Shown here: in pieces, positions 3,825-8,903 of the stretch
How the letters are laid out: every line of letters begins with the position of its first letter
How positions within the stretch are numbered: position 1 is the stretch's first letter
From: Salinibacterium sp. NG253
Lineage (GTDB): Bacteria; Actinomycetota; Actinomycetes; Actinomycetales; Microbacteriaceae
Length of the DNA stretch: 64,000 nucleotides
NCBI RefSeq assembly: GCF_015864945.1
Contig: NZ_JADYWF010000002.1
Location: forward strand, 310,001 to 374,000
Direction: 5' to 3'
Position numbers and translations under genes: made by a program
The notes under the pieces: generated by a model
Seen by the model: only the letters and a program-made list of their open reading frames with translations
The model's database searches: none
Told to the model about the DNA's origin: nothing

Positions 3825-5033
3825 TTATTGACGCAGGGTGCTGATGGGCTCAGTGTCGGGGATGGGGCTCGCGTCTTTGCCGCGCAGGTCGGGGTGCCAG
3901 CCGCGCAAGACGGTGGGAACAAGCACTCCGAGAGCGGCAATGACGGTGGCAGCCCAGAATCCACCGATGGGGCCATAGGCGTCGATGAGGAAGCCGGCGA
4001 CGGCGGAACCGAGGGCTGCCCCGATCAATTGGCCGGTGCCGACCCAGCCGTACGCTTCAGCGGTATCGCTGAATTTCACGCTGGCAGACACTATCGCAAA
4101 GATGACGGCGAAGGCGGGGGCGATGCCGATGCCCGCGATGAGCAGGGTGATGGAGAGCCACCAGAAGTTGAGGCTGAACATGGCGAGCGCCATGCCGACG
4201 AACACAATGAACATGCGGCGGGCGAGTGCCCAGGGGCCGATGGGCAAGTGCCCGAGGAAGAGGCCGCCGAAGAGTGAGCCAATCGCCCAGATGCCCAGCA
4301 CGAAACCTGCTTGCGGCCCGTCGTGACCAAACACTGACACTACGGATGCCTCGACTGCTGCTGCGGCGCCGACGAGCAGGAAGCCGGTGATGGTCGCCAA
4401 CATCACGGGGGGACGACGCAGCACGGTTCCGAAGGAGCGCTTGCTGCGCGGGATGCGCACCTGGCCGACTTCGGGGCTTGCGATGAACCACGCGCCTCCG
4501 CCGAGCAGGAACGCGCCAGCGACAACGATCGCTGTGGTCGTCGAAATCTGAATAGCGAGGAAGGTTGCCACTACTGGCCCGGCAACCCAAATGATCTCTT
4601 GCGCCGAGGCGTCAAGCGAGAAGAGGGGAGTGAGCTGCTTGGAGTTCACCATTTTGGGGTAGATCGTGCGCACGGCGGGTTGCACTGGCGGGTTGCTGAG
4701 GCCGGCAATGAGCCCCACGACCATGAACATGCCGACGCTGAGAGGAACCAGCGCGATGGTAAAGATGGCGGCGGCCGAGACAATGAGGGTGAGGATGAGC
4801 ACTTTGCGCATTCCCCAAATGCCCATCCAGCGGCTCGTGAGCGGGCCGGCAATACCCTGCCCGATACTCGTTGCGGCAAGCACGAGGCCGGCAGCGCCGT
4901 AAGAATTGTGGATCTGTTCGACGTGAAGAAGGATCGCCAACGAGAGCATTCCGCCAGGCAGTCGCGCGGTGAGCTGCGCTGCGATGATTCTGGCGATGCC
5001 CGGAGTTTTCAACAGGTCGATGTATGCGTTCAC
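3825..5033 (-). CDS. MFS transporter
   Basis: 402 residues with about twelve hydrophobic segments and an MFS-type loop (RWMGIWGMRKVLI) after the second helix. The N-terminus MNAYIDLLKTPGIARIIAAQL and overall organisation resemble small-molecule efflux permeases of actinobacteria. The C-terminus is a short cytosolic tail. It is a single-gene unit transcribed away from the nrd promoter region; their 5' ends are 248 bp apart. The substrate cannot be inferred. Confidence 0.85.
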   Translation of the reverse strand: MNAYIDLLKTPGIARIIAAQLTARLPGGMLSLAILLHVEQIHNSYGAAGLVLAATSIGQGIAGPLTSRWMGIWGMRKVLILTLIVSAAAIFTIALVPLSVGMFMVVGLIAGLSNPPVQPAVRTIYPKMVNSKQLTPLFSLDASAQEIIWVAGPVVATFLAIQISTTTAIVVAGAFLLGGGAWFIASPEVGQVRIPRSKRSFGTVLRRPPVMLATITGFLLVGAAAAVEASVVSVFGHDGPQAGFVLGIWAIGSLFGGLFLGHLPIGPWALARRMFIVFVGMALAMFSLNFWWLSITLLIAGIGIAPAFAVIFAIVSASVKFSDTAEAYGWVGTGQLIGAALGSAVAGFLIDAYGPIGGFWAATVIAALGVLVPTVLRGWHPDLRGKDASPIPDTEPISTLRQ

Positions 5034-5128
5034 AAGAACTCCAGCTTAGCCGTCGAATTGGGCCTCATCCGTGCCGCCGATTGCTGGTTTCATAAGGAAT
5101 TTTAGGGTGTCAGTGGTTATCCCTAGGC

Positions 5129-5156
5129 TGTGGAAAACCCCGCGAAGTTATCCACA
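5129..5156. promoter_or_regulatory. DnaA boxes upstream of nrdA
   Basis: A perfect high-affinity DnaA box TTATCCACA lies at 5148-5156. A second site, TGTGGAAAA at 5129-5137, is TTTTCCACA on the other strand and fits the consensus TTWTNCACA. A weaker TTATCCCTA lies at 5118-5126. They are 125-160 bp upstream of nrdA, beside the NrdR boxes. In E. coli, DnaA binds the nrdAB promoter and links dNTP supply to replication initiation; the same wiring is inferred here. No dnaA or dnaN gene is near, so this is not read as an origin. Confidence 0.7.
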
Positions 5157-5172
5157 CCTGTGGAGGACACGC

Positions 5173-5220
5173 CCACTACATCTAGGGTTGGCGAGAGGTG
5201 GCACCCACGATATATAGTGG
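5173..5220. promoter_or_regulatory. Paired NrdR boxes of the nrd operon
   Basis: Two 16-bp sites match the NrdR consensus acaCwAtATaTwGtgt. The distal box at 5173-5188 (CCACTACATCTAGGGT) matches about 12 of 16 positions. The proximal box at 5205-5220 (CCACGATATATAGTGG) is a near-perfect palindrome. Their centres are 32 bp apart, three helical turns, which is the spacing NrdR tetramers need. NrdR represses ribonucleotide reductase genes when ATP/dATP signals sufficiency. The nrdR gene itself is not in the window. Confidence 0.88.
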
Positions 5221-5281
5221 TGAGACCGCTTGGCCGGGGGTCGCGGTTTTCGAGGTTTTATGGGGATTTTAGGGAGTTTTT

Positions 5282-7720
5282 GTGGCAATCACAGTCGTCA
5301 AGCGCAACGGTACGCGAGAGCCGTATGACGCCAACAAGATCAACCTCGCAATCGAAGATGCCGCCACTGGCCTCGACGACAACATCACGTGGGTCACTCA
5401 GATCGCGTCCGAGCTTGAGTTGACGCTGTTTGACGGCATCACAACGCAGCAGCTCGACGAAGCGGTCATTCAGGTCGCCCTCCAAAACGTAAAAGACGAC
5501 CCGGCCTTCGACACTGTCGCTGCCCGTCTTCTTCTCAAGACCATCTACAAGCGCGTTCTCGGTGACTACTCCGACGCTGCTGACCTCAAGCGCCTGCACA
5601 AAGAGCACTTCGGCCCCAACGTCATCCGTGGCGTAGAAGAAGGCCTCCTCGACCCGCGCCTCACGAGCATGTTCGACTTGGATGCTCTCGCTGAGCACCT
5701 TGAGCCCGCTCACGATGAGCTGCTCAAGTACATCGGTGTTGTTACGCTCAACAATCGCTACGGCATCAAGGGTCGCAACGGCGACGCCCTTGAGGTGCCG
5801 CAGTACTTCTGGATGCGCATCGCGATGGGTCTCTCGCTCAACGAAGCGAACCCCAATGAGGCTGCCCTCAAGTTCTACGAAAAAATGTCCAGCCTCGAGT
5901 ACTTGGCTGCTGGCTCCACTCTCGTGAACGCGGGAACGATCTACCCGCAGCTCGCCAACTGCTTCGTCATGGAAATGCAAGACGACATGGAGCACATCGC
6001 CAAGACGACGCGCGATGTCATGTGGCTCACCAAGGGCACCGGCGGAATCGGCCTGTCGGTCACCAAGCTTCGCGCCCAGGGCTCGCCCATCCGCTCGAAC
6101 AACACGACCTCTACCGGTCCCATCCCGTTCATGCACACGATCGACTCGATCTTGCGTGCGGTCAGCCGCGGTGGCAAGAAGTTCGGCGCCCTCTGCTTCT
6201 ACATGGAGAACTGGCACATGGACTTCCCGGAGTTCCTCGAACTCCGCAGCAACTCCGGTGACCCTTACCGCCGCACCCGCACCGCCAACACGGCCGTCTG
6301 GATCAGCGACGAGTTCATGAAGCGCGTTCAAAACGACGACGCGTGGTACCTCTTCGACCCGCTCGAAGTTGCGGACCTCAACGAGCTGTACGGTAAGGCA
6401 TTCTCCGAGCGCTACAACGAATATGTTGCGATGGCTGAGGCCGGCGAAATGCACATGTTCAAGAAGATCGGTGCTCGCGAGCAGTTCAAGTCGATCCTCA
6501 TCTCCTTGCAGACCTCCAGCCACCCGTGGCTGACCTGGAAAGACACGATCAACAACCGTGCGCTCAACAACAACACGGGCACGATCCACCTCTCCAACCT
6601 TTGCACCGAAATCACGCTCCCGCAGGATGAAGACAACGTCTCCGTCTGCAACCTTGCGTCGATCAACCTGTCGCGTCACCTTCTCCCCGAAGGCGGAGTC
6701 GACTTTGCGAAGATCGCTGAGAGCGCCCGACTGGCCGTACGCCAGCTCGACAACCTCATCGACATCACGCGCTCCAGTGTGAAAGAAGCAGACTTCTCCA
6801 ACGAGCAGAACCGTGCTGTTGGTCTCGGAGTGATGGGCTTCACTGACATCATCGAGAAGCTCGGCTACAGCTACGAGAGCGAAGAGGCCTACGACCTCAT
6901 CGACGAAATCATGGAGCACGTTTCCTACGCCGCGATCGACGCCAGCACTGAGCTCGCGAAAGAGCGTGGCGCGTACACGAACTTCGAAGGCAGCGGATGG
7001 TCGAAGGGCCTCGTGCCACTCGACTCCATCGCGCTCACCGAAGAAGACCGTGGAATCGAGATCAAGGTCAACCGCAAGACTCGCCTCGACTGGGATGCCA
7101 TGCGCGAGAAGGTCAAGGGCGGAATGCGTAACGCAACGCTCATGGCGATCGCCCCCACCGCATCCATTGGTCTCGTTGCGGGCACCACGCCCGGCCTCGA
7201 CCCGCAGTTCTCGCAAATCTTCAGCCGCTCGACCTCGAACGGCAAGTTCCTCGAAGTGAACCGCAACCTCGTGGCGACTCTTCAAGAGCACGGACTGTGG
7301 GAAAAGAACCGCGAAGCCATCCTTCGTAGCCAGGGCGACATCCAGAACGTTGCCGGCATCCCGGACGACATCAAGGCTGTTTTCAAGACGAGCTTCCAGC
7401 TCTCGCCGTATGCCTTCCTTGAGGTTGCCGCTCGTGCCCAGAAATGGATCGACCAGTCCATCAGCCGCAACATGTATCTCGAGACGCGTGACCTCGGCGA
7501 CATGATGGACATCTACTTTGACGCGTGGTCGCGCGGCGTCAAGACCACCTACTACCTGCACATGAAGCCCCGCCACCAGGCAGAACAGTCCACGGTGAAG
7601 GTCAACAAGTCAGAAGAAATTTCGTCGAGCAAGGCTGCAACAGCCACGGCATCCACATCAACCGCGGGCGCAGCTCCCGCACGCCGAGGTTTCGGCGGAT
7701 TCGCAAAGAAGGCAGAGTAA
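5282..7720 (+). CDS. nrdA: Ribonucleoside-diphosphate reductase, alpha subunit
   Basis: 812 residues from GTG, with AGGGAG seven bases upstream. An N-terminal ATP-cone (residues about 3-95, starting VVKRNGTREPYD) gives allosteric activity control. The ten-stranded barrel carries the class I active site: Cys227 (LANCFV) and Cys456 (VCNLAS) as the redox pair, Cys441 as thiyl radical with Asn439 and Glu443 (NLCTE), and the Tyr757-Tyr758 radical-transfer pair (TTYYLHM). The chain then runs into an Ala/Ser/Thr-rich linker and stops at GGFAKKAE, with no cysteine after the YY pair. Class I alpha subunits normally end in a cysteine-pair swinging arm that re-reduces the active site; here a matching CxxCQ sequence is on the next ORF, two bases after the stop. 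NrdR and DnaA sites lie upstream. Confidence 0.97.
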   Translation: MAITVVKRNGTREPYDANKINLAIEDAATGLDDNITWVTQIASELELTLFDGITTQQLDEAVIQVALQNVKDDPAFDTVAARLLLKTIYKRVLGDYSDAADLKRLHKEHFGPNVIRGVEEGLLDPRLTSMFDLDALAEHLEPAHDELLKYIGVVTLNNRYGIKGRNGDALEVPQYFWMRIAMGLSLNEANPNEAALKFYEKMSSLEYLAAGSTLVNAGTIYPQLANCFVMEMQDDMEHIAKTTRDVMWLTKGTGGIGLSVTKLRAQGSPIRSNNTTSTGPIPFMHTIDSILRAVSRGGKKFGALCFYMENWHMDFPEFLELRSNSGDPYRRTRTANTAVWISDEFMKRVQNDDAWYLFDPLEVADLNELYGKAFSERYNEYVAMAEAGEMHMFKKIGAREQFKSILISLQTSSHPWLTWKDTINNRALNNNTGTIHLSNLCTEITLPQDEDNVSVCNLASINLSRHLLPEGGVDFAKIAESARLAVRQLDNLIDITRSSVKEADFSNEQNRAVGLGVMGFTDIIEKLGYSYESEEAYDLIDEIMEHVSYAAIDASTELAKERGAYTNFEGSGWSKGLVPLDSIALTEEDRGIEIKVNRKTRLDWDAMREKVKGGMRNATLMAIAPTASIGLVAGTTPGLDPQFSQIFSRSTSNGKFLEVNRNLVATLQEHGLWEKNREAILRSQGDIQNVAGIPDDIKAVFKTSFQLSPYAFLEVAARAQKWIDQSISRNMYLETRDLGDMMDIYFDAWSRGVKTTYYLHMKPRHQAEQSTVKVNKSEEISSSKAATATASTSTAGAAPARRGFGGFAKKAE

Positions 7721-7722
7721 TT

Positions 7723-7803
7723 ATGAACCGCGAAAATACCGTTGAGGACTACTTCGTACCGGTCGACCCTATGGACGACCTGCAGTGCGACAGCTGCCAG
7801 TAA
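7723..7803 (+). CDS. 26-residue ORF ending in CxxCQ, likely detached NrdA tail
   Basis: An ATG starts two bases after the nrdA stop (TAA TT ATG) with AAGAAGG about 10 nt upstream, so re-initiation is plausible. The acidic peptide starts MNRENTVEDYF and ends DDLQCDSCQ. The terminal CxxCQ resembles the redox-active tail of actinobacterial NrdA proteins, which this NrdA lacks. The ORF is in the -1 frame relative to nrdA, and that frame is open across the junction, so one extra base upstream would fuse the two into one normal-looking protein. It may be a separately made electron-shuttle peptide, the product of frameshifting, or the mark of a one-base deletion, real or in the assembly. Confidence 0.6.
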   Translation: MNRENTVEDYFVPVDPMDDLQCDSCQ

Positions 7804-7828: not shown

Positions 7829-7860
7829 GGGGAACACGACACCACACCGTCGTGTTCCCC
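7829..7860 (+). terminator. Strong stem-loop between nrdA tail ORF and nrdB
   Basis: Perfect 12-bp stem GGGGAACACGAC / GTCGTGTTCCCC with an 8-nt loop (ACCACACC), 25 bases after the small ORF and 44 bases before nrdB. No U-run follows, so it may act as a partial terminator, an RNA-processing stop or a stabiliser that sets the NrdA:NrdB ratio rather than a simple end of transcription. Confidence 0.7.
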
Positions 7861-7904: not shown

Positions 7905-8903
7905 ATGGGAATTCTAGGTACAGGCCTGCAAGACGGCCTCCTGCTGAAGCCAATTAAGTACCAATGGGCTATGGACCTGTACGACCAGGCCGTCGCTAAC
8001 ACCTGGTTCCCTAACGAGATCCAGTTGGGCGAAGACATCGCCGACTTCAAGAAGATGACTGATGAAGAGCGTCACGCGGTGACGTTCCTCATGAGTTACT
8101 TCAACCCGAATGAGCTGCTCGTCAACAAGGCACTCGCCTTCGGTGTGTACCCCTACGTTTCTGCCGCAGAGTGCTCGCTGTACCTCGCGAAGCAGATGTG
8201 GGAAGAAGCTAACCACTGCATGAGCTTCGAGTACGTTCTCGAAACTTTCCCCATCGATCGTGAAGCGGCCTACAACTCTCACGTTGATGTGCCGTCCATG
8301 GCGCGCAAGGAAGAGTTCGAAATGAAGTACATCCGTCGCATGACGGAGCAAACTCTCGACATCAACACCATCGAGGGCAAGCAAGACTTCATCCGCAACC
8401 TCGTTGCCTACAACGTGGTGCTCGAAGGCATCTGGTTCTACTCGGGCTTCATGGTTGCCCTGTCGTTCCGCCAGCGCAACTTGCTGCGCAACTTCGGTTC
8501 GCTCATGGACTGGGTTGTTCGCGACGAAAGCCTGCACCTCAAGTTCGGTATCAACCTGATTCTCACGGTGCTCGAAGAGAACCCCGAGATTCAAACCGAA
8601 GAGTTTGCCGACGAAATTCGCCAGATGATTCTTGATGCTGTGGAAATGGAAGAGGCCTACAACCACGACCTTCTCCCCGGCGGCATCCTCGGGCTCAACG
8701 CCAACTACATCAACCAGTACGTCAAGTACTTGGCTGACCGTCGTTTGGAAGAACTCGGATTCGAGGCGCACTACAAGGTCTCGAACCCGGCCAAGTGGAT
8801 GGCGACAGCCAACGACACTCTTGAGCTCGTGAACTTCTTTGAGTCGACCAACACCTCGTACGAGGCCAACGCGTCGGCAACCACCAAAGCTAAAGTCGAG
8901 TGA
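7905..8903 (+). CDS. nrdB: Ribonucleoside-diphosphate reductase, beta subunit, class Ic type
   Basis: 332 residues, ferritin-like radical-generating subunit. Metal ligands by motif: Glu70 (NPNELL), Glu101 and His104 (EANHCMSF), Glu174 (VLEGIW), Glu208 and His211 (DESLH). The position of the radical tyrosine (E. coli Tyr122) is Phe108. The spacing Glu70-Glu101-His104-Phe108-Glu174-Glu208-His211 is the same, residue for residue, as the Chlamydia trachomatis class Ic set 89-120-123-127-193-227-230. Such enzymes store the oxidising equivalent on a Mn(IV)/Fe(III) cluster instead of a tyrosyl radical. The C-terminal tail keeps a Tyr (Tyr319) for radical transfer to NrdA. The start has AGAAAGAAGAAG upstream. 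The 3' end overlaps the GNAT gene by 4 nt. Confidence 0.96.
   Translation: MGILGTGLQDGLLLKPIKYQWAMDLYDQAVANTWFPNEIQLGEDIADFKKMTDEERHAVTFLMSYFNPNELLVNKALAFGVYPYVSAAECSLYLAKQMWEEANHCMSFEYVLETFPIDREAAYNSHVDVPSMARKEEFEMKYIRRMTEQTLDINTIEGKQDFIRNLVAYNVVLEGIWFYSGFMVALSFRQRNLLRNFGSLMDWVVRDESLHLKFGINLILTVLEENPEIQTEEFADEIRQMILDAVEMEEAYNHDLLPGGILGLNANYINQYVKYLADRRLEELGFEAHYKVSNPAKWMATANDTLELVNFFESTNTSYEANASATTKAKVE

Follow-up and report, generated by a model that had tools for sequence, protein, structure and literature searches.

How does a class I ribonucleotide reductase (RNR) re-reduce its active site if the alpha subunit ends before the cysteine pair of the swinging arm, which in E. coli NrdA is formed by C754 and C759? 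This question is raised by the nrdA gene in a 64,000-nucleotide stretch of DNA from Salinibacterium sp. NG253, here called the window (G000:C2:310001-374000), which was taken from a genome of 2.97 Mb that is 99.9% complete. The features of the window that bear on the question are listed below.

5173..5220, + strand: NrdR-box-like pair in the nrdA promoter (5173-5188 and 5205-5220, 16-bp spacer), with 4 and 3 mismatches to a 16-mer consensus
5282..7720, + strand: nrdA, tail-less class I RNR alpha subunit of 812 amino acids, with a GTG start and TAA at 7718-7720
7706..7712, + strand: Shine-Dalgarno-like AAGAAGG within the nrdA 3' end, 10 nt upstream of the peptide ATG
7723..7803, + strand: ORF for a putative redox-tail peptide of 26 amino acids, with ATG at 7723 and TAA at 7801-7803, two bases past the nrdA stop
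7829..7860, + strand: 12-bp RNA hairpin with no T-run after it (region MFE -30.3 kcal/mol, z -3.7)
7905..8903, + strand: nrdB, radical-generating beta subunit, apparently class Ic-like, with Phe at the radical-Tyr position

The NrdA protein contained the ATP-cone, Ribonuc_red_lgN and lgC domains of a class I alpha subunit, had NF005101 as its best NCBIfam match with 1610 bits (cut-off 988), and was encoded by the only gene in the genome that matched PF02867. It aligned to the NrdA protein of P. aeruginosa (5im3) across the active-site cysteines and the Tyr pair, and the three active-site cysteines (C227, C441 and C456) and the radical pair YY757-758 were all present; we take the role of each active-site cysteine to be that of its E. 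coli counterpart. The only other cysteine in the chain was C305. The protein ended in ...RRGFGGFAKKAE and kept an RGFG motif near its C-terminus, where cysteines were absent. No cysteine follows the Tyr-Tyr pair, as the initial annotation had claimed, and the chain thus lacks a C-terminal cysteine pair of its own. The coordinates likewise bear out the small ORF that it had placed two bases past nrdA, with AAGAAGG ahead of it, an ATG as its start and DDLQCDSCQ at its end. The encoded peptide is MNRENTVEDYFVPVDPMDDLQCDSCQ, its cysteine codons are located at 7786-7788 and 7795-7797, and it is read in frame +2 (equal to -1) relative to nrdA. No family was assigned to the peptide from Pfam, NCBIfam or PHROGs; in one search, one of five peptides gave a single match with an E-value of 0.23. 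The redox cysteine pair is thus located in a separate gene, as in split RNRs of the NrdJab kind.

To place this arrangement among its relatives, we compared the nrdA-nrdB junctions of loci L001-L138 (30 + 27 + 1 + 80), leaving out L019, L021 and L022, which are fused, 27-72% identical and outside the family, L023-L030, which represent other RNR types in which the NrdA core was unmatched, and L018 and L083, which are on truncated contigs. The remaining 125 loci contained 98 distinct nrdA 3' ends, the one in the window included. None of these 98 Microbacteriaceae 3' ends encoded a fused tail, while 95 were followed by a tail ORF ahead of nrdB, the exceptions being L090, L102 and L111. Among 59 further junctions from the family, which share genomes with the 98 distinct 3' ends, there were again none with a fused tail; the ORF was present in 52, and the 7 scored without it include G038, which does have an operon ORF (G038:C1:2514238), and G210, which is cut by the end of the contig. 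The comparison of relatives that had been proposed as a check showed the split throughout the family loci compared. A tail located just beyond the stop codon and in a different frame is what a recent one-base deletion or an assembly error in a fused gene would leave behind, the simple alternative in the initial annotation. However, a fused gene was found at none of the 98 distinct 3' ends and none of the 59 further junctions, across many assemblies, and because the relatives are never fused we rejected this explanation, to which we attach a negligible probability.

The C-terminal extension of NrdA, counted from three residues past the Tyr pair, was devoid of cysteines in all 98 distinct split proteins, and all of them contained an [RK]GF[GA] motif 4-16 residues from the C-terminus, which was also present in 19 of 26 fused NrdA proteins. 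With a motif that requires CxxC, an operon ORF was identified in 122 of the 125 untruncated loci. The operon peptides were 21-57 amino acids long, with starts as chosen, and variable in their N-terminal part, yet the start adjoining the nrdA stop was mostly retained: the start codon was located between -4 and +8 from the nrdA stop in 90 of the 95 cases (TGATG or TAATG type). For 82 distinct operon copies, a core of 16 codons had a pN/pS ratio of 0.25 when read in the frame of the ORF and of 1.55 and 2.21 in the two alternative frames, and the within-genus ratio for 18 distinct operon copies was 0.13, as compared to 3.0 and 2.2; these copies were chosen by a residue-fixing motif, which lowers pN somewhat and which is matched by 122 of the 125 loci. 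Since pN/pS is low in its own frame only, the peptide ORF is, as judged from its codons, a protein-coding gene and conserved beyond chance.

The frames of the tail ORFs bear on a second explanation, in which the tail is added to NrdA by programmed ribosomal frameshifting, a joining that the initial annotation had considered, or by stop-codon bypass, giving a one-chain enzyme. The ORF was in the same +2 frame in 79 of the 95 distinct loci and overlaps between stop and start codons were frequent, both of which would suit such joining, but 10 ORFs were in frame 0 behind the stop codon, 6 were in frame +1, and some began 60-61 nt past the nrdA stop. Furthermore, no common slippery heptamer was seen by eye in the approximately 30 nt ahead of the nrdA stops inspected.

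It was also noted that the tail is encoded only at another site in some genomes, a further finding that speaks against such joining. In seven genomes, the junction contained no tail ORF and the ORF was located elsewhere: G166 (the genome of L090, the same as G605), G606, G607, G082, G151, G204 and G044. The case is less strict for G605 and G606, because each of them contained a second PF02867 gene; G607 contained a single PF02867 gene, and G044, G082, G151 and G204 each had a single match to the tail-less NrdA. In G044, which consists of one contig of 927,303 bases, nrdA was located at about 796 kb, and the tail profile matched just once (E <= 1), at 830,815. Programmed frameshifting calls for a fixed frame and a recoding signal, and we found three frames and remote copies; we rejected the joining of the tail by frameshifting because of the three frames, the gaps of 60-61 nt and the copies elsewhere, and regard it as very improbable.

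Free-standing copies were also found in genomes that have an operon copy. A search with a profile of the tail peptide identified a second copy in the genome of the window (G000:C2:160983), 157 kb away, which encodes MDNENDTVGGYAIPVDPMDLLQCDSCQ and is associated with AAGGAGG. Of 199 Microbacteriaceae genomes sampled, 91 contained a tail-less NrdA of the window type (taken as a match at E below 1e-170), and all 91 contained a tail match (E <= 0.01). Among the 108 family genomes with no NrdA of this type, there were only 3 with a tail match, namely the incomplete MAGs G141 and G199, and G169, in which the match was weak (E 1.1e-3).

Two observations concern copies close to genes of other kinds. 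G070 contained six matches to the tail profile, of which four formed two pairs 4-5 kb apart (L304 and L305, on contigs C8 and C10); by eye, the pairs adjoin relaxase-like and UmuC-like genes, which suggests that they are located on mobile elements. In L308 (positions 2244-2822; G607:C5), a longer ORF near a relaxase-like gene ended in ...APVDPEDGLDCDSCQ, possibly a diverged tail domain or a chance resemblance.

The promoters of the free-standing copies resemble that of nrdA. The layout of two NrdR-like boxes seen upstream of nrdA in the window was present in 64 of 66 scored nrdA upstream regions (80 in total, with no start found in 14). For the free-standing genes, 35 loci gave 32 distinct upstream regions, including that of the window genome's own copy, and all 32 contained an NrdR-box-like pair, with 6-12 mismatches in total to the consensus. 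The boxes were 33 bp apart from start to start (17-bp spacer) in 30 of the 32, and none of 1029 control stretches taken from these loci contained a pair with <=12 mismatches. The pair was also present in four of five additional free-standing copies, the exception being L374 (contig C2 of G151). Two boxes about 15-17 bp apart is the layout of an NrdR regulon, and NrdR itself is encoded in the genome of the window. The spacers of 16-17 bp agree with the optimum of 15-17 bp given in passages of PMC12051234 for four NrdR proteins, one of which is from an actinomycete. The free-standing copy is thus a candidate for control by NrdR, as far as its promoter sequence indicates.

Two observations were made downstream of the peptide ORF. 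The hairpin at 7829-7860, which sits between the peptide stop and nrdB and was recognized by eye in L002 and absent from L003, may serve in RNA processing or in attenuation. The best alignment of NrdB was to the beta subunit 1syy, which we take to be that of Chlamydia trachomatis, and a Phe replaces the radical Tyr of most class I enzymes. Because of this Phe, the sequence suggests a class Ic-like Mn/Fe enzyme. In the passages of PMC4009431 that concern Tropheryma whipplei, class Ic is the only class given.

To what extent do the relationships outside the family indicate the origin of the split? Fused tails, such as ...ACPVDPQERLQCESCQ, were seen only outside Microbacteriaceae, where 26 of 29 loci (the window's own excluded) encoded a homologous fused tail; of the other 3, two were truncated and one, L148, was tail-less. 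The tail profile matched 22 of 394 genomes sampled across the class: the genome of the window, G169 (weakly), 18 genomes in which a fused NrdA frame ended in the match, and G433 and G254, for which such a position was not shown. In a quick tree of 50 NrdA proteins, the 28 split rows formed one clade with SH-aLRT support of 100 under midpoint rooting, with the tail-less L148 included in the group labelled as fused. The split in NrdA looks to be derived and to have arisen once, because fused tails are found outside the family and the split sequences form a single clade in the tree. L148 (from G476) is an outside-family NrdA without any CxxC and with a long branch in the tree; there was no nrdB in the fetched stretch and no match to the tail peptide in the genome.

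The peptide was also encoded on phages and plasmids. By tblastn, weak matches (E 0.02-2) were obtained to Clavibacter phages CMP1 and CN1A, Pontimonas phage phiPsal1 and phage Pan2, of which only Pan2 has an annotated feature, a hypothetical one, at the position of the peptide. A scan of viral contigs gave 267 pattern matches, 256 of which were confirmed. All of the best 80 of these 256, which were kept, ended in C-[DE]-x-C-Q-stop, residues that were not included in the seed pattern. The fetched stretch contained nrdA or nrdB in 3 of 84 loci (80 viral loci and 4 isolates). When 35 viral records, which may be fragments, were searched as a whole, nrdA was clear in one (L283), marginal in one (E 9e-4) and not found in 33, and these 33 peptide-bearing records provide no NrdA to which a frameshift could join the tail. 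The nrdA gene in L283 is tail-less with the peptide gene located upstream; a separate observation is that it contains an in-frame insertion of about 0.9 kb near the active-site cysteine region (4167-7505, an open frame of 1136 amino acids), possibly an intein. Among plasmid records, 19 contained the peptide (E 5e-5 to 0.09), of which 15 were from Clavibacter, 3 from Leifsonia and 1 from Gryllotalpicola. The name given to a 33-residue plasmid copy (L380, 3483-3584; WP_223361114.1), ribonucleotide-diphosphate reductase subunit beta, is apparently an annotation error.

The upstream neighbours of ten viral copies, hand-picked from 75 and hence not a frequency, were assigned by PHROGs to holins (3), an endolysin (1), a minor tail protein (1), a terminase (1), a phage membrane protein (1) and unknown functions (3). 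That several phage copies are located behind lysis genes is odd for a metabolic gene, and would sit more easily with a peptide that acts as a regulator, such as an inhibitor or decoy of NrdA or of NrdB assembly, or as a general thiol peptide, with another donor reducing NrdA. Such a role is also favoured by the ability of non-physiological reductants to reduce the active-site disulfides of RNR directly, which passages of PMC4520616 describe for the NrdA of E. coli and the NrdJ of L. leichmannii. However, the peptide is homologous to fused catalytic tails, CxxC is present in 80 of 80 viral and 122 of 125 family loci (the latter by a motif that requires it), and the peptide accompanies the tail-less enzyme in 91 of 91 genomes, with a single PF02867 gene in the genome of the window. 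We therefore consider a regulatory or general thiol function unlikely.

The split, its conservation, the selection on codons, the co-occurrence, the remote copies and the shared promoter elements can all be read in the sequences, and with these in view we consider it very probable that the ORF at 7723-7803 is a separate gene for the C-terminal redox arm of NrdA, the product of which acts in trans. The proposal in the initial annotation of a separate peptide supplied in trans by coupled translation thereby gains support from the comparison of relatives. Translation, binding, electron transfer, the donor and NrdR control may be envisaged as follows. An ancestral fused protein (...CPVDPxExLQCESCQ) would have lost its last approximately 20 residues to a separate ORF at about the time when the lineage of Microbacteriaceae that retains the window-type NrdA arose. 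The operon peptide would be produced mostly by coupled translation, in which ribosomes terminate on nrdA and re-initiate at the adjoining start codon, with an additional supply from the putatively NrdR-controlled free-standing gene. The free peptide would dock non-covalently on NrdA via the conserved YxVPxDPMDxLQ, which may be a docking segment because the stretch is longer than CxxC needs, perhaps at the RGFG end, where [RK]GF[GA] is a candidate partner site. Its Cys-x-x-Cys would re-reduce the active-site disulfide at each turnover, after which the spent peptide would leave NrdA and be reduced again by a donor of the thioredoxin type. Copies on phages and plasmids would work with the enzyme of the host. 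This model requires that a short free peptide is stable and abundant in the cell. Counting against it are the tail-less NrdA of L148, whose genome gave no peptide match, the free-standing copy L374 with no NrdR-box pair, the second PF02867 gene in G605 and G606, the three family genomes with a tail match but no NrdA of this type, and the position of phage copies next to lysis genes.

With somewhat more confidence than doubt, we also favour a broader reading for the Microbacteriaceae genera that keep a tail-less NrdA. In this reading, their class I RNR cannot work without a third component, a mobile and diffusible redox peptide; RNR turnover would be tuned by the supply of peptide from the operon copy and the NrdR-controlled copy; and the peptide, carried on its own by phages and plasmids, would be a minimal auxiliary gene for driving the enzyme of the host. 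An essential enzyme would then seem to depend on a very short and often unannotated peptide gene, located elsewhere in the genome or carried by a phage. With a separate peptide, the reductive step would be separable, which would allow peptide-dependent turnover, affinity and the specificity for reductants to be titrated directly. The peptide illustrates how very small genes can be overlooked in essential metabolism; as a candidate auxiliary metabolic gene of phages, its gene is one of the smallest.

Several known systems resemble parts of this arrangement. NrdH-redoxin and glutaredoxin are small, diffusible dithiol carriers dedicated to RNR, with a thioredoxin fold, which reduce the tail. The peptide described here would likewise be a small, diffusible dithiol carrier dedicated to RNR; unlike these folded reductants, it would be the tail itself. 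The tails of yeast Rnr1 reportedly act in trans. The peptides share the CxxC tail chemistry of the canonical class I swinging arm and are homologous to the fused tails of related actinobacterial NrdA proteins, but the canonical arm belongs to the alpha chain, which it terminates (PMC9531940, PMC9669993), whereas here it is encoded separately. Apart from the two-piece NrdA of Aeromonas phage Aeh1, the alpha chains of the class I RNRs described in the cited passages end in the reducing arm. The NrdA-a and NrdA-b proteins of Aeh1 are also a class I NrdA in two pieces, and make a functional enzyme, but that gene was split by the insertion of a homing endonuclease in one phage (PMC2988022, PMC3653736), whereas the proposed trans tail described here is family-wide. 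CXXC was present in 1737 of 2022 class I sequences according to a passage in PMC9531940, so class I sequences without CXXC existed in that set.

A close parallel in design is NrdJa/NrdJb of P. aeruginosa, in which a catalytic chain without redox cysteines is likewise combined with a separate chain for thiol-disulfide exchange, both chains being needed in vivo, as stated in passages of PMC4520616. That enzyme belongs to class II and uses AdoCbl, whereas here a class I NrdA is combined with NrdB, and NrdJb is a 229-residue subunit encoded in one operon (PMC4520616), whereas the operon peptides here have 21-57 residues and are joined by free-standing, phage and plasmid copies. The system in the window is thus not a class II enzyme with a folded NrdJb domain. 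The passages of PMC9669993 on splitting mention it for class II only, and none of the open-licence papers listed, as judged from titles and abstract starts, describes a tail peptide encoded apart from a class I NrdA. We rate the separate class I tail peptide as a new form of split RNR rather than as a new category.
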